Part shown: positions 4,141 through 20,561 of the stretch, piece after piece
Layout: every line of letters begins with the position of its first letter
Numbering within the stretch: the first letter of the stretch is position 1
The notes under the pieces: generated by a model
Told to the model about the DNA's origin: nothing
Database searches by the model: none
Seen by the model: only the letters and a program-made list of their open reading frames with translations
Translations under genes and position numbers: made by a program
DNA from: Pseudoalteromonas nigrifaciens
Lineage (GTDB): Bacteria; Pseudomonadota; Gammaproteobacteria; Enterobacterales; Alteromonadaceae
Direction: 5' to 3'
Length of the DNA: 64,000 bases
NCBI RefSeq assembly: GCF_002221505.1
Contig: NZ_CP011036.1
Location: forward strand, 3,286,001-3,350,000

Positions 4141-6090
4141 TTAGCCAAACAAACCTTTCAATTTATCTTTAAGTTTGTCTTTTGCTTTTTCTTTGAGCTT
4201 TTCTTTTGCTTCTTCTTTAAGCGCATTACCAAAATCAAGCTTAATGCCTACATCATGGAATGGCCCTTTAATACGCAGTGGTATTTTAAAGCCGGTACTA
4301 TCATCGGTTGTACCCTGCCCCTCAATAGAACCGACTATACCGGTTACTAGTCGGTAATTAATAATAGTATTAGGTAAATCCACATCACCTTCGCCTGAAA
4401 TACGGATCAGTGGGCTGATTAACGACAGGTCGTTATTATGGCCCACCCCATTAGTAAACTTAAAGCTACCCGTTAATGCTGAGAAGTCGGTTTGCTGTGA
4501 CTTATCAAAGCCAGTATCTAGTCCTTCTGATACAGCCCCTACATTACCTTTAAGCAACTCTTTACCTTTGCGAATCATTTCAGCTATATTTGCGCCTTGT
4601 ACTGCGCCATTAGCAAACTCAAACCCTAACTCACCATTAAGTGCGTTAACAAACTCTTTTTGGCTTTGCCCATTTGTGGTTAAGTTCCAATTTAATGAGC
4701 CATTACCCATTAATTTATCAAATCCTGCGGCATCGGTTAATAACGGTTGTGCATCAATACCTGCCAAATCAAAATTAGTGGTTATTTTATAAGGTATTTG
4801 CTGGGCATTAATATTAATTGCCCCTTTCCCTGTTCCCTCATAGGCTGCAAAGTTATCTAAGCTTAATTTAGCGACACTATTTTTTAACGCTACTGTAAAT
4901 TGGTTTGCACCGAGTTTAATATCGTTAGCTTTTAAACCGCTTGAGCGTATTACTACATTAGCATCAAGCGTATTTAAGGCACTTAAGTCTATTTTAGTGT
5001 CGTCCCATACAATAGGCTCTGCTGGTTTAGTTTCGTCTGTAGTTGGCTGCTCTTTTTTAGCTACGGCTTCTGGTAAGTATGGGTTTAAGTCAAGCATACC
5101 TAAGTCAATGTTTGCCATTACAGCAAGTCGTTTACCTAAATTAAGCTCACTTTTACCTTTTATTTGCAGTGCATCTAATGTGGCAATAAGCTCTTCAAGC
5201 TTAAATTGCTCACCCGCTAAATGCATTTTGCCATTTACACTAAAAGCATTAAAGGCGTTATCTTTGGCGTTTAACTCTACACCTTGCCATTTGGCTATAT
5301 TTTTTACCGAGTCTCCACTTAGCGCTAACTGACCTTTTATATCTTGGCCTTGTTTAGCAATAGTTCCCTCAAAGGTTAAATCAACTAAACGTGAATCTAA
5401 ACTCTGCTGAATATTAAAAGTAGTACCTTCGATCGCTTTTGCTGGCGTATCTAGTTTTACATCAAGCTCAAAGCGCTCTTGCATGTAAGTTATTGCGCCT
5501 TTTACTTCTAATGTTTTACGCAGTGATGGAAGTAAAATAGCCAGTTCTAAATCACTTATTTGCTGTTTAACCCCGGTTTTACCATCTAAATAAGTAAAGG
5601 TACCACCATAAATGGCAACTTCCCCTAGCTCAATGTCAAAGTTCTCAGGTAATTTTATAGCTTCCGCAGATCCTGTTTGCTCTTTAGGCTGCTCAGCTAC
5701 CGCATCAAATAGCTGCCAGTTAGCTTTACCGTTTTTATCGGTCTCTAATAAAATATCAGGCTCGTTAATAACAAACTTATCGAGTTTAAATTCACCATCT
5801 AATAGCGATAGCCAAGGGATGTGTACTGCAAGCTGCTGCATACTTGCCATATCGGCGCGAGAGCCCGATTTCATGTTGGCAAAATGTACATCATTAAGTT
5901 CTAATTTTAATGCAGGAAATACACTCAGCGTTTTATCGCCTTTAATAGTTAATGTACGTCCTGTGGTTTGTTCTACCTGCTCAGAGACTTTATTAAAAAT
6001 AGCATCAGTAGGAATTAAAAAGGGTGCTGCAACGATAAGTGCAATACATAACAGCAGTATTACACCTATAATTTTAAATAAGGTTTTCAT
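4141..6090 (-). CDS. AsmA family protein
   Basis: AsmA-family proteins are inner-membrane-anchored periplasmic proteins. Large members bridge the membranes for phospholipid transport, while short ones like this (649 residues) are linked to outer-membrane assembly. The start is the ATG at 6090 with AAGGA 8 bases upstream; it gives a single N-terminal membrane helix (MKTLFKIIGVILLLCIALIV). Then comes the AsmA N-domain (TLTIKGDKTLSVFPALKLELNDVHF), a long beta-rich repetitive middle and the AsmA_2 region (SLNWNLTTNGQS, then GTGKGAININAQQIPYKI upstream). The C-terminus is a Lys/Glu-rich helix ending DKLKDKLKGLFG. The exact substrate is unknown. Confidence 0.88.
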   Translation of the reverse strand: MKTLFKIIGVILLLCIALIVAAPFLIPTDAIFNKVSEQVEQTTGRTLTIKGDKTLSVFPALKLELNDVHFANMKSGSRADMASMQQLAVHIPWLSLLDGEFKLDKFVINEPDILLETDKNGKANWQLFDAVAEQPKEQTGSAEAIKLPENFDIELGEVAIYGGTFTYLDGKTGVKQQISDLELAILLPSLRKTLEVKGAITYMQERFELDVKLDTPAKAIEGTTFNIQQSLDSRLVDLTFEGTIAKQGQDIKGQLALSGDSVKNIAKWQGVELNAKDNAFNAFSVNGKMHLAGEQFKLEELIATLDALQIKGKSELNLGKRLAVMANIDLGMLDLNPYLPEAVAKKEQPTTDETKPAEPIVWDDTKIDLSALNTLDANVVIRSSGLKANDIKLGANQFTVALKNSVAKLSLDNFAAYEGTGKGAININAQQIPYKITTNFDLAGIDAQPLLTDAAGFDKLMGNGSLNWNLTTNGQSQKEFVNALNGELGFEFANGAVQGANIAEMIRKGKELLKGNVGAVSEGLDTGFDKSQQTDFSALTGSFKFTNGVGHNNDLSLISPLIRISGEGDVDLPNTIINYRLVTGIVGSIEGQGTTDDSTGFKIPLRIKGPFHDVGIKLDFGNALKEEAKEKLKEKAKDKLKDKLKGLFG

Positions 6091-9575: not shown

Positions 9576-10739
9576 ATGAAAAAAGCCATTATCATCACAC
9601 TCGCTATTGCCGCTTTTATAGCGTTAATTGTATCAAAACAAATTTCTGGTGATAAAAAACAGCCCGAGGTAAATATCGCCCATGTTGAACTAGGCAATAT
9701 TGCCGACTCAATAATGGCGTCTGGTAACTTAGTATTTAATACTCAAGTTCAGCTGCGCTCTGAAGTTACCGGCCGAGTAGATAAAGTATTTGTCGAAGAA
9801 GGCCAAAGTGTAAAACAAGGCGATATTTTAATGCGCCTTGATACCACTGCATTTGAATCTGAAGTAACCCGCAATAAAGCGCTACTACGTGCCACCGAAA
9901 TAGAAATTAAACATAGCCAAATTCGCTTAGTTAACTTTGAGCGCCAACTAAAAAGACAAAAAGAGCTTTACGATGTCGGTTTGGGCAATGAAGAAGCCTA
10001 TGAAAACCTAGCAAGTGCCCGCGACTTAGCTAAAATAGATATTGAATCTCGTAAAGAGTCGTTTAACCAAGCTCATGCGTCGTTGCAAATTGCCCAAGAT
10101 CGGTTAAATAAAAGTGTTTTTAAAGCGCCTATGAGTGGCCTATTGGCTTCGGTTAATATTAAAGAAGGCGAAACGGTTATTGCCGGAACGACCAATATAA
10201 TAGGCTCTGATTTAATGCTGGTTGCTGACCCCAGTGCTATTTTAGCTGAGTTGCGGGTTGATGAAACCGACATAGCCAGTATTAAACTCCACCAAAAAGC
10301 AAATATTTATGCCGCTGCTTATCCTAATAATCCTTTTACTGGCACAGTAATAAACATTGGTACCTCGGCTAAAAATCAGCCTGGCTCACAAGGGTTATCA
10401 TTTAAGGTAAAAGTATTACTCGATGCTACCGATCGTCAACTATATGCCGGAATGAGCTGTAGAGCAGAAATTGCCACCAGCATTGCCGAAAATGGTTTAA
10501 AGTTACCAATAGAAGCAATTCAAAAACAAGACGACAGCACCTTTGTTTGGCGCCTAAATAACGACAACAGCGTTAGTAAAGTAACCGTAGCTGTTGGTAT
10601 ATCATCAGATATTGAACAAGCAATTACCGAGGGGCTCAATGAAGGTGACAAAATAGTTATTGGCCCGGCTCGCCCTATTAGTACTTTAAAAGAAGGCGAC
10701 ACAGTAAAAGTAAAAGCCGCTGCGAAGGAAAACAACTAA
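9576..10739 (+). CDS. MacA-like periplasmic adaptor of an ABC export system
   Basis: Membrane fusion proteins link an inner-membrane transporter to an outer-membrane channel. This one (387 residues) has an N-terminal membrane helix (residues 4-20). A lipoyl-like half-motif (VQLRSEVTGRVDKVFVEEGQSVKQGDILMRLD) is followed by an alpha-helical hairpin (about residues 90-180). The second lipoyl half is FKAPMSGLLASVNIKEGETV, and beta-barrel and membrane-proximal domains follow. The stop overlaps the next start (TAATG), so it is coupled to the ATPase. Together with the next two genes it forms a tripartite MacAB-type pump; the outer-membrane partner is not encoded here. Confidence 0.88.
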   Translation: MKKAIIITLAIAAFIALIVSKQISGDKKQPEVNIAHVELGNIADSIMASGNLVFNTQVQLRSEVTGRVDKVFVEEGQSVKQGDILMRLDTTAFESEVTRNKALLRATEIEIKHSQIRLVNFERQLKRQKELYDVGLGNEEAYENLASARDLAKIDIESRKESFNQAHASLQIAQDRLNKSVFKAPMSGLLASVNIKEGETVIAGTTNIIGSDLMLVADPSAILAELRVDETDIASIKLHQKANIYAAAYPNNPFTGTVINIGTSAKNQPGSQGLSFKVKVLLDATDRQLYAGMSCRAEIATSIAENGLKLPIEAIQKQDDSTFVWRLNNDNSVSKVTVAVGISSDIEQAITEGLNEGDKIVIGPARPISTLKEGDTVKVKAAAKENN

Positions 10740-13727: not shown

Positions 13728-14123
13728 ATGAAAAAAACTCGTATTTATTCTGCTTGGCTACTGGCCATATTATTCACCTTTTTTAGCCAAATAAGCCTAG
13801 CTGCACCCCCAAAACAATTACCCAATCGAGAACCCGACCAAGAAGTGCAGCATTTAATTACCTTTATTAGCAACAGCAACGCCACTTTTATCCGCAATGG
13901 CGATGAACATACTAGCAAAGAAGCCGCCGAGCATTTAGCCATGAAATACCGTAAAGCTAAACGTTATGCAAAAACAGCCGACGACTTTATTAATAATCTA
14001 GCCAGTAAAAGTTCATGGAGTGGTAAAGCCTACACGGTAATTTTAAGCAGTGGTGCTAAGTTAACCGCAAATAGCTGGCTAACCAATGAGCTAATACGAT
14101 TTAGAAACACAAAAAAGCCGTAG
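13728..14123 (+). CDS. DUF5329 family secreted protein
   Basis: This protein of 131 residues starts at MKKTRIY, chosen because it begins a clean signal peptide (ending QISLA before APPKQ). Upstream in-frame ATG codons overlap the previous gene. The mature domain matches the DUF5329 pattern: EVQHLITFISNSNATFIRNGDEHTSKEAAEHL, then KYRKAKRYAKTADDFINNLASKSSWSGKAY and a WLTNELIRFR end. The function is unknown. It is directly downstream of the secreted EEP protein and presumably co-transcribed. Its stop codon lies inside the stem of the opposing terminator. Confidence 0.75.
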   Translation: MKKTRIYSAWLLAILFTFFSQISLAAPPKQLPNREPDQEVQHLITFISNSNATFIRNGDEHTSKEAAEHLAMKYRKAKRYAKTADDFINNLASKSSWSGKAYTVILSSGAKLTANSWLTNELIRFRNTKKP

Positions 14124-14134
14124 TAAATACGGCT
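14110..14134 (-). terminator. Terminator of the RND operon, overlapping the convergent gene end
   Basis: On the minus strand AGCCGTA-TTTAC-TACGGCT followed by TTTTTT makes a canonical terminator for the RND adaptor gene. It contains the stop codon and last codons of the plus-strand DUF5329 gene, so the two convergent units share this sequence. Confidence 0.8.
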
Positions 14135-14166
14135 CTCTAAAGCTATCAATAATAACAAGCTAAGCG

Positions 14167-15252
14167 TTACCTAGCTGTATGCGCTAAGTTAGGTACGTAA
14201 TCTATCGCTAGAATATCGCCGGGGTTAAGCCCAGTAACTACATGCTGCTTTGCGCCAATTATTTCACCTAAGCGCACAAACCGGCGTTCTATTTGCTCAT
14301 TGTCACTATTAATCACATACAGCATAGTTAATTGGCCAAACTCATGTATCCAGCTACTATCTAGCAATATTCCTTGTTCATCGGGTAATACTAACTCTAA
14401 TTGCGCATACAAGCCGGGCATTACCCCTACAGAAGAGTCAAAGTCTAAGCGAATTAACAAACTACGTGAGGCGCTATCGGCAACCGGAACTATTTCGGCC
14501 ACTGTGGCTGGCGAGGTTAAATTAAGCGCAGGCAGCTTTATGGTTAAACTTTGCCCTAACTGCAATTTAACCGCTTGCATTTCTCGCACACTAAACTCAA
14601 CTTGTAGCTGCTGCGGGTTATATAATCCCAATAAAGCCTGCCCAGGCGTAGCTGTATCACCAGGTTCGACTAACCGCTCTACTACAACCCCCGAAATAGG
14701 CGCTGTAATACGAGTGTAACTCAGCGCAACTTTGGCTTGTGTTTGCTGCTGCTTAGCGGCAATTAAATTGGCCGATAAACTATCAAAATTTGCCTTCGCA
14801 TTATCTAACTCACTTAACGATACTAAGCCTTGCGCATACACACTTTCAATTCGCTTAAGTTGCTTTGTAGCTTGGGTTAATGCGGCTTGAATAGCATTAA
14901 TTTGCGCCTCACTTTGTGCTAATTGCGCTTTAAAGTCATCTTGTTGTAAGGTAATGAGTAAATCACCTTTGGTTACTTTATCGCCCGCGCGTACACTTAA
15001 ACGCTCAACTTGCGCCATAACTCGCGATGAAATTTGGGTATTTTGTTTCGCAATAATACTGCCTGGCACCCATTCACTACGGGATATTTTTTGTAGTAAA
15101 ACCGTTTCCCGCTTACCGTGGTAATTGTTAGCGTTGGTCGTTTTCAAACCAGCAACTTGCTTATTTGAAAAGCTGCCCGCCATATACAATACGGCGCCTA
15201 CTACCACTAATAAAGCGAGTAACGAGCCAACTAGTTTTGATTTACCTTGCAT
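14167..15252 (-). CDS. RND efflux periplasmic adaptor subunit
   Basis: This 361-residue membrane fusion protein starts at ATG 15252 (MQGKSKLVGSLLALLVVVGAVLYMAG), which has GGGAG 8 bases upstream; an in-frame upstream ATG gives a non-homologous 11-residue extension. It has an N-terminal membrane anchor and the lipoyl half-motifs RVMAQVERLSVRAGDKVTKGDLL and APISGVVVERLVEPGDTATPGQAL. A helical hairpin lies between them, and barrel domains follow. It overlaps the end of the permease gene by 11 bases, so translation is coupled. No outer-membrane factor gene is present; a TolC encoded elsewhere is likely used. Confidence 0.9.
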   Translation of the reverse strand: MQGKSKLVGSLLALLVVVGAVLYMAGSFSNKQVAGLKTTNANNYHGKRETVLLQKISRSEWVPGSIIAKQNTQISSRVMAQVERLSVRAGDKVTKGDLLITLQQDDFKAQLAQSEAQINAIQAALTQATKQLKRIESVYAQGLVSLSELDNAKANFDSLSANLIAAKQQQTQAKVALSYTRITAPISGVVVERLVEPGDTATPGQALLGLYNPQQLQVEFSVREMQAVKLQLGQSLTIKLPALNLTSPATVAEIVPVADSASRSLLIRLDFDSSVGVMPGLYAQLELVLPDEQGILLDSSWIHEFGQLTMLYVINSDNEQIERRFVRLGEIIGAKQHVVTGLNPGDILAIDYVPNLAHTAR

Positions 15253-18200
15253 GCGTTTCTCCCGCAGTGGTTTCTGTGTTTGCAAATACTAAGTAATAAA
15301 CAAGCGGCACTACAAATAACGAAAACAACGTTGATGCCACAATGCCAAAAATAATCGCAATTGCTAAGCCACTAAATACCGGATCTAGTGTAATCACTAA
15401 GTTACCTAATAATGTAGTGCCTGCGGTTAGTAGTACGGGGCGCATGCGCACTGTTCCTGCTGCAATTAACGCTGCTTTTATTGCCATACCTTGGGCGCGT
15501 GCTTGATTAATAAACTCAACTAAAATAAGTGAATTACGCACCACAATACCCGCCAAGGCAATCATGCCTATCATCGCAGTAGCGGTAAATAAAACCGGCT
15601 CGGGAGCTGATGCAATACTGCGCTCACCAAACTGATTAAGTAACCAAAAACCAGGCATAATACCAATAACAGTGAGTGGTATTGCCGACATAATAATAAG
15701 CGACAAGCTTACTGAGCGTGTTTGTAGCCGTAAAATAATAAAAATGGCGCTAAGTGCAAATGCAAAGGCAATCCCCATATCTCTAAATACATCTATGGTA
15801 ATACGCCACTCTCCTTCACCGCTAAATGTTACTTGCGTACCTGGCGGTAATTGCCAAGGTGCGGTGCCACCATTATTAAAAAAGTGCCGCGCTAACCAAG
15901 GCGTTTTTACAAAATCGTCTGTTGATATATTTAAATCAGCAGTTACATCGGCAATTATTGCTGCGGGAGTTCTACCATTTAGCTCTGCCATAACATAAAT
16001 AACTTCGCGCTGATCTTTGCGCATAATAGTTTGCGCTACATTTAATTGAGTAAACTCTCCAAGCTCAGAAAGCGCAACTAAAGGCCGCGGCGCACTGCTT
16101 AAGCCAAATTTACTCGCATTTTTAGCTATGTCTCTGTCGCCCCTTAGTTGTAATGCTAGCAATTGTGCAAATTGATTGCGTTCGCTATAAGATAGCTGCA
16201 GTTTTATTGGCACAGGCTGAGTTTCGTTGCTGACATAAAGCTGCCCAACCGTTTGCCCTTGTGACGCTATGCTAAGTGTTTGCGTGATATTTTCGGTAGA
16301 TATAGCACTATGCGCCGCTTTCGTTTTATCAGTAATAAAACGCTGCAAAGGGGCTGCTGCAACCATTGAAGTATCAACCTCTACCACATGAGGTTCTTGT
16401 TTTAAGCGCGTTGCAACTTGCTCTGCGGCTAAATAATGCGTTTGCCTATCAATAAATGTATCTCGATAAACCTCTGCCACTAAAGTACTTAACACCGGCG
16501 GCCCTGGCGGCACTTCAACTACTTTAATCACTATGCCGTTATTTACTAATGGTGCTAACTGTTTACGCAAACGCATTGCCACCGCATGAGATTGATGCTC
16601 GCGCGCTGTTTTATCTAGTAGTAGCACTCTTAGTTCAGCTAAGTTCGGTGCTTCTCGTCGGTAATAACCGCGTACCATACCATTAAAGTCCATACTTGAA
16701 GGCTGGCCTACATAAGTGGCTATTTCACTTACTTCGTTTAATTGCCATGTGAGTGTTTGGATTTGTTTAGTAAATGCAGCTGTGCGCTCCAGATTAGTCC
16801 CCTCTGGCATATCTATCAGTACTTGCAGCTCATTTTTATTATCAAAAGGGAGTAGCTTTAAAGGCACCAAACGCATCACGGGTAACATGGCGCTGATAAT
16901 AAATAATGCTAGGGTTAGCCACAAAACAAGTTTTGCTCGCCCCTTAGAAACCAATAATGGGCTTAATATTCTTTGATATGCACCAACTTTAGGAGCAAGC
17001 TCGGAGGGTTGTTCGTTATCAGGCTTGAGTAACTTCATCGCAAGCCAAGGGGTTACAAAAAATGCAACAATGGTAGAAACCATCACGCTAACCGGCACAT
17101 TAAATGCCATAGGTGCCATATATGGCCCCATCATGCCGGTAATAAACGCCAGTGGAATAAACGCCACCATTATAGTGAGTGTCGACATAAGCAAGGCATT
17201 TCGAATTTCGCTCATTGCGCCAACAACATGTTGTTTTTTATCGCCTTTATTATTTATAAAGCGACTAATATTATCAATACCCGTGATAGGGTCGTCTACC
17301 AGTAAGCCTAATGATAAAATAAGCGCAAATAAGGTCACCCGATTAATGGTGTAACCAAATGCAAAATCTAATGAGAGTGTAATGCCATAACAAATAGGAA
17401 CCGCCAGCCCAACTACCACAGCAGGGCGCCAACCTAAAAACACGCCAACAAATATCACCACAGTAAACACTGCAAACACTAAACTTGATGTGAGGTTATT
17501 TACTTTTTCATTCGCAGTTTGGCCATAATCTCTAAGTACTGTATAGCTAACTTCTGGTGGCAATAAGGTATTTGCAAGTTCATTAATCATAGTATGAACA
17601 TCATTAGCAACAGCAACTGCATTAGTCCCTGTTTGCTTAGCTACGCTTAAAGTAACCATAGGCAACTGCTGCTGATCAGTTGATTGCGCTAACCATTGGT
17701 AATGCTCAGTTTCACTAGGGCCATCGCTGACTGTTGCAATGTCCATCAAGTAAACACTTTTACCATTAACCACATTAACAACTAATTGCTCTACCGCTGA
17801 TTGTGTTCTTAGTACATCACCTGCCTGAATAGCAATTTGCTGCTGATTATCAACCACATTCCCTACTTGAGTGAGTTGGTTTGATACATTTAATGCGTAA
17901 AAAACATCGTTTACCGTGGTTTGATGGGCAGCCAGTGCGCTGGCATTTAAATTAATGGTAAGAGTGCGTGTACGCCCCGAAATTACTTTAACTTCACTGG
18001 TATGCTCAATGCGTTGTAAATTATTAGCAATTTCGTTAGCAAAACGGGTTAGTTCGTAATCACCATAGAGTTGCGGGGCTTTACTGTATAGCCCCAGCAT
18101 AACAATAGGTACATCATCCACTTCAACGGGCCGTATTTGCCAACTTTTGATAACAGAAGCCATTGTATGCTGATAACTATTTAATTTTGCATAGGTATCT

Positions 18201-18526
18201 AAAATAGCTTGTTCGCGGTTGTGCCCTACTTCAAAACGCAGCGTAACCACTGTACTGTTAGTTTGTGTGGTTGAGTAAATATGCTCAACCCCCACCAGCT
18301 GAGCCAGTAACTTCTCGAGCGGTTGTGTTACTAACCTAGCGACTTCAGGCGCCTCAACGTTAGGTGCTGATACATAAATATCGAGCATGGGCACAGTAAT
18401 TTGCGGCTCTTCTTCTCGAGGTGTTTGATTTAGTGCAAATACCCCAAGTAACAAAGACATCACAAAAATAATAATCGGAATGCGACCACTTAAACTACTT
18501 TTTACCGCATTGTCTATTAAGCTCAT
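15242..18526 (-). CDS. RND family efflux transporter permease
   Basis: This 1094-residue AcrB-type proton-driven transporter has twelve membrane helices in two halves and two large periplasmic loops. It opens MSLIDNAVKSSLSGRIPIII and has the PREEEPQI motif of many marine RND pumps. The helix-4 proton-relay motif is GLLVDDPITGIDN (near residue 410), where DDPI replaces the usual DDAI. It starts 5 bases after the ArsR-type repressor gene and is followed by its adaptor, so repressor, permease and adaptor form one operon. This order suggests that the pump answers the regulator's signal, probably reactive sulfur. The substrate is unknown. Confidence 0.92.
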   Translation of the reverse strand: MSLIDNAVKSSLSGRIPIIIFVMSLLLGVFALNQTPREEEPQITVPMLDIYVSAPNVEAPEVARLVTQPLEKLLAQLVGVEHIYSTTQTNSTVVTLRFEVGHNREQAILDTYAKLNSYQHTMASVIKSWQIRPVEVDDVPIVMLGLYSKAPQLYGDYELTRFANEIANNLQRIEHTSEVKVISGRTRTLTINLNASALAAHQTTVNDVFYALNVSNQLTQVGNVVDNQQQIAIQAGDVLRTQSAVEQLVVNVVNGKSVYLMDIATVSDGPSETEHYQWLAQSTDQQQLPMVTLSVAKQTGTNAVAVANDVHTMINELANTLLPPEVSYTVLRDYGQTANEKVNNLTSSLVFAVFTVVIFVGVFLGWRPAVVVGLAVPICYGITLSLDFAFGYTINRVTLFALILSLGLLVDDPITGIDNISRFINNKGDKKQHVVGAMSEIRNALLMSTLTIMVAFIPLAFITGMMGPYMAPMAFNVPVSVMVSTIVAFFVTPWLAMKLLKPDNEQPSELAPKVGAYQRILSPLLVSKGRAKLVLWLTLALFIISAMLPVMRLVPLKLLPFDNKNELQVLIDMPEGTNLERTAAFTKQIQTLTWQLNEVSEIATYVGQPSSMDFNGMVRGYYRREAPNLAELRVLLLDKTAREHQSHAVAMRLRKQLAPLVNNGIVIKVVEVPPGPPVLSTLVAEVYRDTFIDRQTHYLAAEQVATRLKQEPHVVEVDTSMVAAAPLQRFITDKTKAAHSAISTENITQTLSIASQGQTVGQLYVSNETQPVPIKLQLSYSERNQFAQLLALQLRGDRDIAKNASKFGLSSAPRPLVALSELGEFTQLNVAQTIMRKDQREVIYVMAELNGRTPAAIIADVTADLNISTDDFVKTPWLARHFFNNGGTAPWQLPPGTQVTFSGEGEWRITIDVFRDMGIAFAFALSAIFIILRLQTRSVSLSLIIMSAIPLTVIGIMPGFWLLNQFGERSIASAPEPVLFTATAMIGMIALAGIVVRNSLILVEFINQARAQGMAIKAALIAAGTVRMRPVLLTAGTTLLGNLVITLDPVFSGLAIAIIFGIVASTLFSLFVVPLVYYLVFANTETTAGETHAR

Positions 18527-18531
18527 CGCAC

Positions 18532-18834
18532 TTAGCCCTTACAGAATAACCCATACAAGGTACCAAGCAGAACGACTGCATTTTCATCAATGACACGATA
18601 ATAAATTGTTTGGCTCTCGCGGCGCGTAGCCACAATGTTTGCTTTACGCAACGCTGCTAAGTGCTGAGATAACGCAGACTGCGCTAATGGCACGGCTTCA
18701 TTGAGCTGAGATACGCTCATTTCTGAATCTTGCAAAGAACATAAAATCATCAAGCGATTTTTATTGGCTAAAATTTTTAATAGCTGCTCGGCTTGTTCTA
18801 CATTGCCGGCCATGGCAGTAAAGTCAATATTCAT
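18532..18834 (-). CDS. ArsR family repressor, BigR/SqrR-like persulfide sensor
   Basis: This 100-residue winged-helix repressor carries the two cysteines that define the BigR/SqrR group: Cys32 (in NRLMILCSL) and Cys98 (in TLYGLFCKG). In studied members these form a di- or tetrasulfide bridge on contact with persulfides and release DNA. The recognition helix region is VPLAQSALSQHLAALRKANIVATRRESQTIYY, very close to BigR. No metal-binding CxC motif of ArsR/SmtB metal sensors is present. It is divergent from a DUF2892 protein and a rhodanese, the usual BigR-controlled partners, and heads an RND pump operon. It probably represses both directions. Confidence 0.85.
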   Translation of the reverse strand: MNIDFTAMAGNVEQAEQLLKILANKNRLMILCSLQDSEMSVSQLNEAVPLAQSALSQHLAALRKANIVATRRESQTIYYRVIDENAVVLLGTLYGLFCKG

Positions 18835-18854
18835 ACTATGCTCTTATTCTAAAA

Positions 18855-18930
18855 TAGAGTCTAAGTATAAGACGTTAGATTAGAAAAGTCTAATATTAGA
18901 TTTTACTAATATAGATAAACCTAATATAGT
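18855..18930. promoter_or_regulatory. Palindrome-rich operator region between divergent BigR-like and DUF2892 units
   Basis: The 129-base gap contains ATTAGA (18879-18884), a 4-base spacer and TCTAAT (18889-18894). The last half-site is part of a perfect 12-base palindrome TCTAATATTAGA (18889-18900). TAGA-G-TCTA lies at 18855-18863 and CTAATATAG occurs twice (18906-18914 and 18921-18929), 15 bases apart. TTTACT (18902-18907) and TATAGT (18925-18930), 17 bases apart, make a likely promoter for the rightward genes. The palindromes fit binding by an ArsR-type dimer. Confidence 0.6.
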
Positions 18931-18963
18931 GACTGTACTGAACTAAATAACTGGCCTACTATA

Positions 18964-19152
18964 ATGAAGCTAAATAACGCACTCAGACTAATCGCTGGCA
19001 TAATGATTATTGTGTCGCTTTTATTGCAAACTTATCACGATCCTAAGTGGATTTACTTTACAGCTTTTATCGCAGTAAATTTAATTCAATCAGCTTTTAC
19101 TAGCTGGTGCCCAATGATCACTCTATTACGCAAACTTGGCTTTAAGGAATAA
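18964..19152 (+). CDS. DUF2892 (YgaP-type) small membrane protein
   Basis: This 62-residue protein has two membrane helices (about residues 8-22 and 30-46) and matches the DUF2892/YgaP transmembrane module. The start NNALRLIAGIMIIVS and a Cys in the second half (SWCPMITLLRKLGF) are characteristic. In YgaP a rhodanese domain and this module are fused; here they are two genes 5 bases apart. It probably anchors the rhodanese or moves a sulfur compound. It is divergent from the BigR-like repressor, which likely controls it. Confidence 0.85.
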   Translation: MKLNNALRLIAGIMIIVSLLLQTYHDPKWIYFTAFIAVNLIQSAFTSWCPMITLLRKLGFKE

Positions 19153-19157
19153 ACACC

Positions 19158-19502
19158 ATGCTTACCCCTATTCCCGATTTACTAAAAATAATTACTCCTA
19201 ATCAGCGCCGTATTGATGCCGAACAAGCAAAGAAAGAGCTTGAGCAAAATAAAGGATTGTTGATTGATGTACGAGAACCCGCTGAACATGCCACCAAAGC
19301 AGCTATAGGCGCTATAAACATTCCTCGCGGGCTACTTGAAATGAAGCTCATGGAAATAGAAAAAGACGCAGCCCGTCCTATTTATTTACATTGCGCTAGT
19401 GGTGCGCGTGCAACATTAAGTGCTGAAGCGCTGACCCGAGTAGGCTACGAAAACGTGACAGTTATTACTTGTAAAGCAGAAGCTGTTTGTCAGGCATTTT
19501 AA
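19158..19502 (+). CDS. Rhodanese-like sulfurtransferase
   Basis: This 114-residue single-domain rhodanese transfers sulfane sulfur. The catalytic loop is CASGAR, with Cys79 as the persulfide-carrying residue. Family blocks LLIDVREPAEH (residues 34-44) and GAINIPRGLL (51-60) are intact. Two extra cysteines (Cys105, Cys111) near the C-terminus are a feature of YgaP-like proteins. AAGGA lies 9 bases before the ATG. With the upstream DUF2892 protein it forms a two-gene unit likely to handle persulfides at the membrane. Confidence 0.9.
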   Translation: MLTPIPDLLKIITPNQRRIDAEQAKKELEQNKGLLIDVREPAEHATKAAIGAINIPRGLLEMKLMEIEKDAARPIYLHCASGARATLSAEALTRVGYENVTVITCKAEAVCQAF

Positions 19503-19520
19503 AGGCCAAAAATTAAATCA

Positions 19521-19551
19521 CTCGGCGATCAACCGATCGCCGAGCTTAAAT
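19521..19551 (+). terminator. Hairpin after the rhodanese gene
   Basis: CTCGGCGATC-AACC-GATCGCCGAG is a perfect 10-bp stem with a 4-base loop, 18 bases after the stop. The tail (CTTAAATAA) lacks a real T-run, so termination may be weak or Rho-assisted. Confidence 0.55.
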
Positions 19552-19661
19552 AACATAATCCAAATTTAAAGGAACACTATGTTCAATTAAAATCAAAGAT
19601 TGAAATTAATAAACTTCAACGCTAATGTATGAAAAAGGAACACCCGTCTAAGGAAGACTTT

Positions 19662-20561
19662 ATGAAAAAAGCTGCCGCTTTATTACTATTTTTACTCGGT
19701 ATTGCTCACTCTGTAAATGCTGATGACAGCATTACCTTAATGGTATGTGAAGATTGTAATTATGGCAGAGCCTCTGAACTAGCAAAAAGCAATGTACCAT
19801 TAGCTCAATGCCACACTACACCCTCTGATCAAAAAGCTGCTATTGCTGATCAAACATGTGATTCAAATCCGCATAAAGTTATTATGATGGATGTCTCTGG
19901 TAACAACCACTTTGCATTTTTTGTGGGAAATCATAGTAGAAATGAGTCAGATAAATATATAGAAGCTACGATATTAAATAAAAATGATCTTATTGCTATA
20001 TCTAAACAAAAAGCAATTGATGAGCATTTCTCAACATTTAAACACACACTTCAAACTGAACTAAGCCTAATGCCACTTTATCAAATAAGTCAGTCTTCTC
20101 ATCTAGATAGACAAAACAACTGCCCCTCCCATGTAAATAATGCAGTAAAGGCTGTATTTGAAGAATATACATCATCTCGAATTCAAAACTGGGTAAATCA
20201 TAAAGTTGAAAATAATATTAAAAATCCTGATAGCTTTTTTACATCAAAACCGATCATAGTTGGTGAGACCTTGTATCAGAGTCTGTGGAGTGAGGTGAGT
20301 AAGAATTTAAATTTAGAAGTTAATCTTAACAATGGAAGCGACGGGCAATACCGTGTTATTTTTTTAGCGAAGTGGATAAAAGAGTTAGGTGCGTTCAGTT
20401 TATCGGTAAACCCTTATTTAACTTATTTAGACGGTATTGCATTAAATCACTATAAAATATCAGCGCCATCAGTCTCCCAATGCTTAAAAAATGCTTTAGA
20501 TAGAAATCTGTCATCATCAATGTCCTCGTATATTTCGAGCACTAATAATGGAGATACTTAG
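19662..20561 (+). CDS. Cysteine-rich secreted protein of unknown function
   Basis: I do not recognise this 299-residue protein. The start at 19662 is chosen because AAGGA precedes it by 8 bases and it opens a signal peptide (MKKAAALLLFLLGIAHSVNA). The frame is open 11 codons further upstream. The mature part has six cysteines: a CEDC pair (29, 32), Cys50 and Cys66, and two single ones later (in QNNCPSH and SQCLKNAL), suggesting disulfides in the periplasm or outside. The N-terminal block resembles no family I can name. Codon use is more A/T-rich than neighbouring genes, so recent acquisition is possible. It stands alone. Confidence 0.7.
   Translation: MKKAAALLLFLLGIAHSVNADDSITLMVCEDCNYGRASELAKSNVPLAQCHTTPSDQKAAIADQTCDSNPHKVIMMDVSGNNHFAFFVGNHSRNESDKYIEATILNKNDLIAISKQKAIDEHFSTFKHTLQTELSLMPLYQISQSSHLDRQNNCPSHVNNAVKAVFEEYTSSRIQNWVNHKVENNIKNPDSFFTSKPIIVGETLYQSLWSEVSKNLNLEVNLNNGSDGQYRVIFLAKWIKELGAFSLSVNPYLTYLDGIALNHYKISAPSVSQCLKNALDRNLSSSMSSYISSTNNGDT

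Follow-up and report, generated by a model that had tools for sequence, protein, structure and literature searches.

A two-cysteine ArsR repressor at the head of an RND efflux operon, opposite a DUF2892–rhodanese pair: a probable reactive-sulfur-stress module in Pseudoalteromonas nigrifaciens

Introduction

What does an efflux pump do in an operon that starts with the gene of a sulfur-sensing type of repressor? This question is raised by a locus in a 64,000-nucleotide stretch of Pseudoalteromonas nigrifaciens DNA (the window; the genome searched has 4.27 Mb in three contigs). Two divergent units flank a gap of 129 bases. One unit encodes an ArsR-family repressor, a resistance-nodulation-division (RND) permease and its periplasmic adaptor, the other a DUF2892 protein and a rhodanese. 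Open reading frame calls and Pfam place all five genes, and Cys32 and Cys98 of the repressor, where the original prediction had put them:

18532–18834, minus strand: ArsR-family repressor gene arsR (BigR/SqrR/HlyU type), 100 amino acids; HTH_5 54.1 bits, cut-off 22
18739–18741, minus strand: Cys32 codon of arsR, read from the sequence
18541–18543, minus strand: Cys98 codon of arsR, read from the sequence
15242–18526, minus strand: RND permease, 1094 amino acids; ACR_tran 462 bits; motifs TPREEEPQI, VDDPI in transmembrane segment 4 (TM4) and VRN in TM10
14167–15252, minus strand: RND periplasmic adaptor, 361 amino acids; HlyD_D23 80.6 bits; NCBIfam RND_mfp 189.5 bits, cut-off 94.9
18964–19152, plus strand: DUF2892 / YgaP-like_TM protein, 62 amino acids; PF11127 46.8 bits, cut-off 25.3
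19158–19502, plus strand: single-domain rhodanese, 114 amino acids; 51.1 bits, cut-off 22.2; loop CASGAR

The ATG start of the adaptor gene overlaps the permease stop by 11 bases, and the DUF2892 gene is the single PF11127 match in the genome. Our answer is that both units are very likely regulated by reactive sulfur. We also consider it probable, with more reserve, that the locus forms a reactive-sulfur-stress module in which sulfane sulfur derepresses a tripartite exporter with a distant outer-membrane factor, the substrate being deduced from context. The reserve is caused by the export step: it is no more than plausible, so the whole mechanism is held less firmly than its regulatory part.

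Repressor type

The two cysteines of the repressor are 66 residues apart. Both align with cysteines of HlyU, BigR, SqrR and YgaV among the five references, and both are kept in all 60 family homologues compared. According to the available part of PMC10509353, the sulfur-sensing ArsR cluster has a cysteine pair in helices 2 and 5 (we follow its helix numbering), and HlyU treated with persulfide loses DNA binding. The best matches of a single-sequence PDB search are HlyU, SqrR, NolR, BigR and YgaV, followed by SmtB. A profile of 17 rows (the locus sequence and 16 homologues) scores HlyU with 128 bits, BigR with 113, SqrR with 110, NolR with 106 and YgaV with 90; SmtB reaches 66 bits, NmtR 62, CzrA about 55 and 7txm, which we take to be RexT, 23.

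The metal-sensor clade that had been named beforehand as the outcome that would speak against a sulfur sensor does not take up the repressor. This rests on the ranking of profile scores more than on the tree, which is built on 107 columns, shows long branches and contains E. coli ArsR as its sole characterised metal-type reference. A 94/87 branch separates all 84 two-cysteine rows among its 96, the five references included, from E. coli ArsR, the second ArsR of the genome and ten further ArsR rows. Neither E. coli ArsR nor the second ArsR has the first cysteine, and E. coli ArsR aligns a cysteine at the second position. A repressor that senses metal or arsenic, with the sulfur genes as bystanders, would agree with the generic metalloregulator model of NCBIfam, which fits the protein (85.5 bits, cut-off 55), and with the names that annotators give to relatives. 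However, SmtB, NmtR and CzrA score well under the sulfur sensors, E. coli ArsR and the second ArsR, which lack the first cysteine, are on the far side of the tree, and the locus repressor has no CXC motif and no histidine in its last 42 residues. We rejected the metal-sensor reading on profile scores, cysteine alignment and tree, and regard it as highly improbable. The same three lines agree on a repressor of the BigR/SqrR context, as predicted, and support its membership in the reactive-sulfur-sensing ArsR group of HlyU, BigR, SqrR and YgaV at the level of sequence.

The second ArsR gene of the genome (G000:C2:254132-254329; L002:1480-1824) encodes a CVC motif and lies between OsmC-like and glyceraldehyde-3-phosphate dehydrogenase-like genes, named from their translations. 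Its product is probably an arsenic sensor that is unrelated to the RND locus.

Conservation of the locus

A repressor homologue is found in 124 of 147 family genomes (E 1e-12). The comparison of neighbourhoods covers 60 family loci from 59 genomes, which are 60 of the 67 best match rows other than the own one; the rows of G099, G128, G057, G130, G029, G141 and G136 and all lower rows stand outside it. Eleven of the 60 loci (L032, L033, L034, L036, L037, L040, L041, L059, L068, L071 and L084) keep the complete layout of arsR, RND and adaptor divergent from DUF2892 and rhodanese, as was expected of relatives. This recurrence, and the fact that the genome has no second PF11127 match, speak against a chance arrangement. 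Their pumps are 56–80% identical to the locus pump and, together with the window, these loci span six genera. In three loci (L085, L087, L088) arsR, DUF2892, RND and adaptor follow in one direction.

The remaining 46 loci have other neighbours around arsR. A recurrent set contains Sulf_transp (YeeE-type), DUF6691, MBL-fold and TauE proteins (Pfam names of neighbour clusters come from one scanned representative per cluster). YeeE-type, DUF6691, MBL-fold and TauE proteins are the usual company of sulfide detoxification. Because the family loci show such differing neighbour sets, we conclude that the same repressor type serves several targets and that the pump is one among them.

On the repressor tree five changes are required to account for the label "pump-linked", therefore links between arsR and pump have been made or lost repeatedly. 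In at least seven of the 60 loci (L035, L039, L047, L049, L050, L060, L080) a rhodanese is divergent from arsR and no such pump adjoins. Both results would suit a sulfur unit that consists of DUF2892, rhodanese and arsR, with the pump as a passenger captured downstream of arsR; we return to it with the relatives of the pump.

A second exporter context is seen in 16 to 17 family loci, where the repressor gene is near an MMPL-family exporter, a LolA-like protein and a protein of about 450 amino acids without family (representative L055:5435-7972). DUF2892 lies within 6 kb in at least seven of these loci (L053, L055, L066, L067, L070, L075, L081).

A V. cholerae link through an RND operon near hlyU was also considered. 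Published sources place vexLM, for which no substrate is known, on the small chromosome, give adaptor genes upstream of pumps, and identify HlyU as VC_A0642. HlyU is not among the pump-linked rows of the repressor tree and stands apart from them, so no V. cholerae link is claimed.

Operator and promoters

The intergenic gap holds two copies of an inverted repeat, each within reach of one putative promoter:

18879–18894, no strand: operator copy 1, ATTAG-N6-CTAAT, covering the −35 box of the putative arsR promoter; candidate binding site
18895–18910, no strand: operator copy 2, ATTAG-N6-CTAAT, covering the −35 box of the putative DUF2892 promoter; candidate binding site
18864–18892, minus strand: putative sigma-70 promoter of arsR-RND-adaptor, TAGACT-17-TATACT, from the consensus match
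18902–18930, plus strand: putative sigma-70 promoter of DUF2892-rhodanese, TTTACT-17-TATAGT, from the consensus match

The copies stand end to end and are the sole exact ones within the window. With up to one mismatch the pattern has ten matches in the window vs a shuffle mean of 4.6, and two of 100 shuffles reach ten. The putative promoters diverge, each with its −35 box inside one operator copy, and promoter-like matches between 18780 and 19000 number two vs a shuffle mean of 0.6.

The operator recurs in relatives. Its exact form is found upstream of arsR in 10 of the 12 five-gene loci, window included (control mean 0.01 loci). If one mismatch is allowed, all 12 carry it (control mean 0.31), as do the three arsR-DUF2892-RND loci (0.06) and 22 of 28 remaining loci (0.82). 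For loci with YeeE-type neighbours, a class assigned by hand from the neighbour table, the count is 2 of 18 (0.30). All of these controls are first-order Markov resamples of the same sequences, not exact shuffles. The published SqrR site is ATTC-N8-GAAT in the accessible part of PMC9774250. It has the same length as the locus operator and the same three outer bases per arm; one base per arm differs. The tandem operator is a new observation at the five-gene layout, and the repressor is its predicted ligand.

Pump subfamily and relatives

Permease and adaptor genes are adjacent, as in tripartite RND pumps. That no outer-membrane factor is encoded close by was confirmed by a genome-wide OEP search, which found none in the 64-kb window. 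Its 15 matches are 14 that fall in pairs into seven open frames elsewhere in the genome, the candidate outer-membrane factors, and one weak match inside the adaptor.

The locus pump stands apart from the other pumps of its genome, with 20–27% identity to the 13 other PF00873 loci over the cut-off (34% for one 157-residue piece). VDDPI in TM4 and VRN in TM10 differ from the motifs of all 13. The compared relatives share VRN with the locus pump, and 6 of the 13 genome pumps have KN at that place, whose lysine is presumably the proton-relay residue in AcrB. These results bear on a pump for metal-sulfide complexes or for metals freed under sulfide stress, which the authors of PMC5358917 propose for Azospira suillum in the part available to us. 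Some likeness to the CusA/CzcA model TIGR00914 would agree with it, as the permease scores 211.6 bits. The cut-off of that model is 701, however, the multidrug model RND_permease_2 scores higher with 393 bits, itself far below its own cut-off of 1250, and the two motifs are unlike those of every other genome pump compared. Metal-sulfide export is thus quite unlikely in our view.

The pump-centred scan included one genome for each of 84,980 species, and the best 80 of 593 confirmed relatives were analysed. All 15 rows of its seed A1 are repressor-linked pumps, therefore the nearest relatives lean toward repressor linkage, and the patterns GMMGPYM and TPREE[ED]PQ bound what could be found. A class-wide pump search (1e-200; 181 of 369 genomes) was rejected as a count of systems: most of the listed matches have about half the self score, so that it mixes related subfamilies. 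The nearest named relative among the best 80 is from Pseudoalteromonas lipolytica (81% identical); the homologue of Vibrio atypicus is 47% and a methanotroph homologue 42% identical. All five genes are present in P. lipolytica CGMCC 1.8499 (L092).

Within 7.5 kb of the best 80 relatives we find DUF2892 in 27, a two-cysteine ArsR in 17, a rhodanese in 16 and an SQR-like gene (sulfide:quinone reductase, SQR) in 7, with at least one of the four near 38 of the 80 pumps. DUF2892, rhodanese and two-cysteine ArsR are all present near 7 pumps, the rhodanese lying beyond the adaptor in L094 and L099. With at least 52% identity to the locus pump, 14 of 20 relatives have a two-cysteine ArsR within 7.5 kb. 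The original prediction had called a sulfide-regulated RND pump an uncommon pairing. This view cannot be kept: the pairing recurs in these relatives and in print, where the accessible part of PMC12423496 counts RND pumps among the presumed membrane-protein targets of sulfane-sulfur-responsive ArsR regulators from gene neighbourhoods. We therefore regard it as a known kind of system.

DUF2892 bears on the passenger pump introduced above. In 17 of the 80 loci it accompanies the pump with no two-cysteine ArsR nearby (10 with DUF2892 alone, 6 with SQR, 1 with rhodanese), and its frame and the RND stop overlap in L117 and L165. Such repeated pairing of pump and DUF2892 argues for a functional tie, and a pump merely captured downstream of arsR appears very improbable. 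DUF2892 occurs in 102 of 145 family genomes, at one to three copies per genome among the rows shown; this base rate covers the family only.

More distant relatives stand beside genes of sulfide oxidation. In five methanotroph loci (L118, L120, L140, L147, L149) adaptor and RND are preceded by a full-length SQR, DUF2892 and a gene of outer-membrane-factor type; the order is SQR, DUF2892, outer-membrane factor, adaptor, RND in L118, L120 and L140, and the SQR frame of a sixth methanotroph locus, L129, is partial. For the SQR of L140, solved sulfide:quinone reductases are matched with E 1e-151. Relatives 58–61% identical to the methanotroph SQR are found near the pump in Rhizobium, Sphingomonas and Methylocella. 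Thirteen plasmid records were read, one per genus by choice, from 54 records in 22 genera. DUF2892 is annotated near the pump in eight of these 13 genera, and a rhodanese without DUF2892 in one more (Pseudanabaena); the ArsR near the Sphingomonas pump has no second cysteine. The proposed reactive-sulfur role of the pump gains support from relatives beside SQR, dioxygenase-type and persulfide-reductase-type genes.

Some arrangements near related pumps deserve mention of their own. In the gammaproteobacterial locus L105 two genes for two-cysteine ArsR proteins flank a rhodanese-RND-adaptor run (2310-2705, 5484-5849, 10334-10669). On a cyanobacterial plasmid (L256:4243-14034) a single run encodes rhodanese, adaptor, RND, DsbA, cytochrome bd subunits and a SelD-linked-type flavoprotein. 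The pump of Sphingomonas (L263) also has cytochrome bd genes nearby, and that of Methylocella (L264) a cytochrome ubiquinol oxidase subunit. In a planctomycete (L126:5731-15535) the pump frame is in two pieces; after it come a rhodanese-DUF2892 fusion protein and an MBL-fold protein that carries rhodanese domains.

Comparison with known systems

The locus shares with the SqrR, BigR, HlyU and YgaV systems the aligned cysteines at a distance of 66 residues, the closest solved structures and, for SqrR, operator length and outer bases. It differs in the half-site, ATTAG instead of ATTC, and in a repressor that heads a pump operon, neither unit containing SQR or dioxygenase. The Blh-type sulfur transferase/dioxygenase of a bigR operon as in Xylella and Agrobacterium is absent from the two units, which contain arsR, RND, adaptor, DUF2892 and rhodanese only. 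A single SQR query gave no match in the genome, a one-query negative that shows nothing alone. An MBL-fold query gave two partial genome matches (31–35%) and a persulfide-reductase-type query five (27–29%), none of them inside the window.

In E. coli ygaVP, too, a YgaV-type repressor goes together with a rhodanese and a membrane part of PF11127 type. E. coli YgaP presumably carries the PF11127 domain, as the Pfam name also indicates. In contrast to the locus, YgaP is one chain encoded on the same strand as ygaV; here two adjacent genes are divergent from the repressor gene, and no chain of the locus fuses rhodanese and PF11127. By BLASTP the rhodanese aligns weakly with E. coli YgaP (E 0.027) and the membrane part gives no alignment.

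Loci of Salinivibrio (L253) and Vibrio (L111) share part of the layout. DUF2892 is divergent from two-cysteine ArsR, RND and adaptor, and the pumps are 47–50% identical to the locus pump. The lone rhodanese, however, is replaced by a rhodanese-domain flavoprotein that matches solved coenzyme A (CoA)-disulfide and CoA-persulfide reductases, although the NCBIfam cut-offs are not reached. In Vibrio atypicus this CoA-disulfide-reductase-type flavoprotein (501.6 bits, cut-off 578.8) and DUF2892 are divergent from arsR, and two frames are added between arsR and the pump. Salinivibrio kushneri adds a YeeE pair: YeeE, YeeE, a PAS-domain protein, an FAD oxidoreductase and DUF2892 are divergent from ArsR-RND-adaptor. 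The oxidoreductase matches 3nta with E 1e-282 and the coenzyme A-persulfide reductase 8a56 with E 1e-148.

Plasmid 1 of Paracoccus denitrificans PD1222 (L254) has a Blh-type dioxygenase (570.6 bits, cut-off 625), DUF2892, YeeE, DUF6691 and a sulfur transferase, and the same stretch continues with a two-cysteine ArsR, cytochromes, DUF2892, adaptor, RND and an SQR that matches mitochondrial sulfide:quinone oxidoreductase. It thus resembles the locus in RND, DUF2892 and two-cysteine ArsR and ties the pump to SQR. Unlike the locus, it contains SQR and the dioxygenase, and its pump is only 36% identical.

Azospira suillum Dsui_3440-3443 is another RND pump tied to SQR. It differs from the locus by containing SQR. 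As far as PMC5358917 was available, this operon (unknown protein, RND pump, SQR, RND adaptor) is highly expressed under H2S oxidation and flagged by fitness data, and a DUF2892 gene is up about tenfold. Among the open-access papers that our searches listed, none was seen to assign a function to a DUF2892-linked RND pump.

Discussion

The site placement suggests that reduced repressor dimers would bind the two tandem operators, block both −35 boxes and silence both units. When persulfides or polysulfides rise, a polysulfide bridge between Cys32 and Cys98 would release the repressor from DNA, as its homologues SqrR, HlyU and YgaV suggest. The rhodanese may then handle cytosolic sulfane sulfur, with the DUF2892 protein as its membrane partner, corresponding to the second half of a split YgaP. 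RND pump, adaptor and a TolC-type channel encoded elsewhere would remove sulfur species from the periplasm, the substrate being the conjectural part. Gene context makes the sulfur reading well supported; for the pump itself, export of a sulfur species is plausible.

A number of results weigh against this mechanism. The BigR model of NCBIfam (NF040642) is the top-scoring model listed for the repressor with 95.8 bits and lies below its cut-off of 155, therefore we assign the protein to the wider sulfur-sensing group and not to BigR itself. Promoter-like matches show no enrichment over 14000–19700 (10 vs a shuffle mean of 13.7), so the promoter calls rest on their position and on the local excess given above. 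The exact SqrR site occurs in none of 61 upstream regions (60 loci and the window). Genome-wide, the operator pattern has 17 places vs 9 for the reversed control; a broad regulon by operator search was rejected on this ground, and no wider regulon is claimed. Among the best 80 pump relatives, 42 have none of the four sulfur markers nearby. A two-cysteine ArsR is lacking near 6 of the 20 relatives with at least 52% identity (L100, a 4.8-kb contig, and L101, L106, L107, L108, L163), and no sulfur marker is near the pump in 4 of the 13 plasmid records (Polaromonas, Shinella, Alloyangia, Sulfurovum). In Azospira suillum, deletion of the whole SQR-RND operon left the sulfide-oxidation rate unchanged, and the authors favour metal sulfide export, as stated in the available part of PMC5358917.

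A more serious alternative keeps the sulfur-sensing repressor and gives the pump a non-sulfur cargo, for example a redox-active metabolite or electrophile, or a toxic lipid worsened by sulfide stress. Pump and sulfur genes would then be separate branches of a common stress response. In its favour, RND pumps as a class accept a broad range of substrates, genes of several functions are mixed around the pump on the Paracoccus and other plasmids, and sister repressors adjoin the MMPL exporter and LolA-like protein instead. The genes that recur beside pump relatives, on the other hand, are markers of sulfur chemistry: SQR, dioxygenase-type and persulfide-reductase-type genes, rhodanese and DUF2892. 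We consider a non-sulfur cargo rather unlikely and keep the sulfane-sulfur-derepressed exporter as the preferred reading.

Going further, the RND subfamily with TPREE[E/D]PQI, VRN in TM10, VDDP in TM4 of its closer members and DUF2892 as a recurrent partner could be a dedicated sulfane-sulfur exporter. Persulfide, polysulfide or elemental sulfur would be delivered by SQR or rhodanese through DUF2892 and expelled across the outer membrane. This generalization is tentative, and we regard it as less likely than not. If it is true, bacteria without SQR or dioxygenase could use a pump to lower their intracellular sulfane sulfur, and sulfide oxidisers would have a path by which sulfur gets outside the cell. 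To our knowledge, envelope transport of sulfane sulfur and elemental sulfur is poorly understood. From Alteromonadales to methanotrophs and Alphaproteobacteria, pumps of the subfamily are often neighbours of genes for SQR, dioxygenase, persulfide reductase, rhodanese and DUF2892, and this makes the question of sulfur transport testable by deletion of one operon. The subfamily also provides a recurrent partner for DUF2892, a small membrane domain of unclear role. The Pseudoalteromonas nigrifaciens locus is a compact version, with pump and rhodanese and no adjoining SQR or dioxygenase. The point of main interest is what this subfamily, so often found with sulfide genes in different phyla, transports.

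Other features of the locus

A protein of 299 amino acids with an N-terminal signal-like segment is encoded at 19662–20561 beside the rhodanese gene and has no Pfam or NCBIfam match. Both units are followed by terminator-like elements, and such matches number 11 in 14000–19700 vs a shuffle mean of 5.9:

14112–14138, minus strand: putative terminator 3′ of the adaptor gene, from the hairpin scan
19520–19545, no strand assigned (the scan lists the minus strand): inverted repeat directly 3′ of the rhodanese gene, possible terminator

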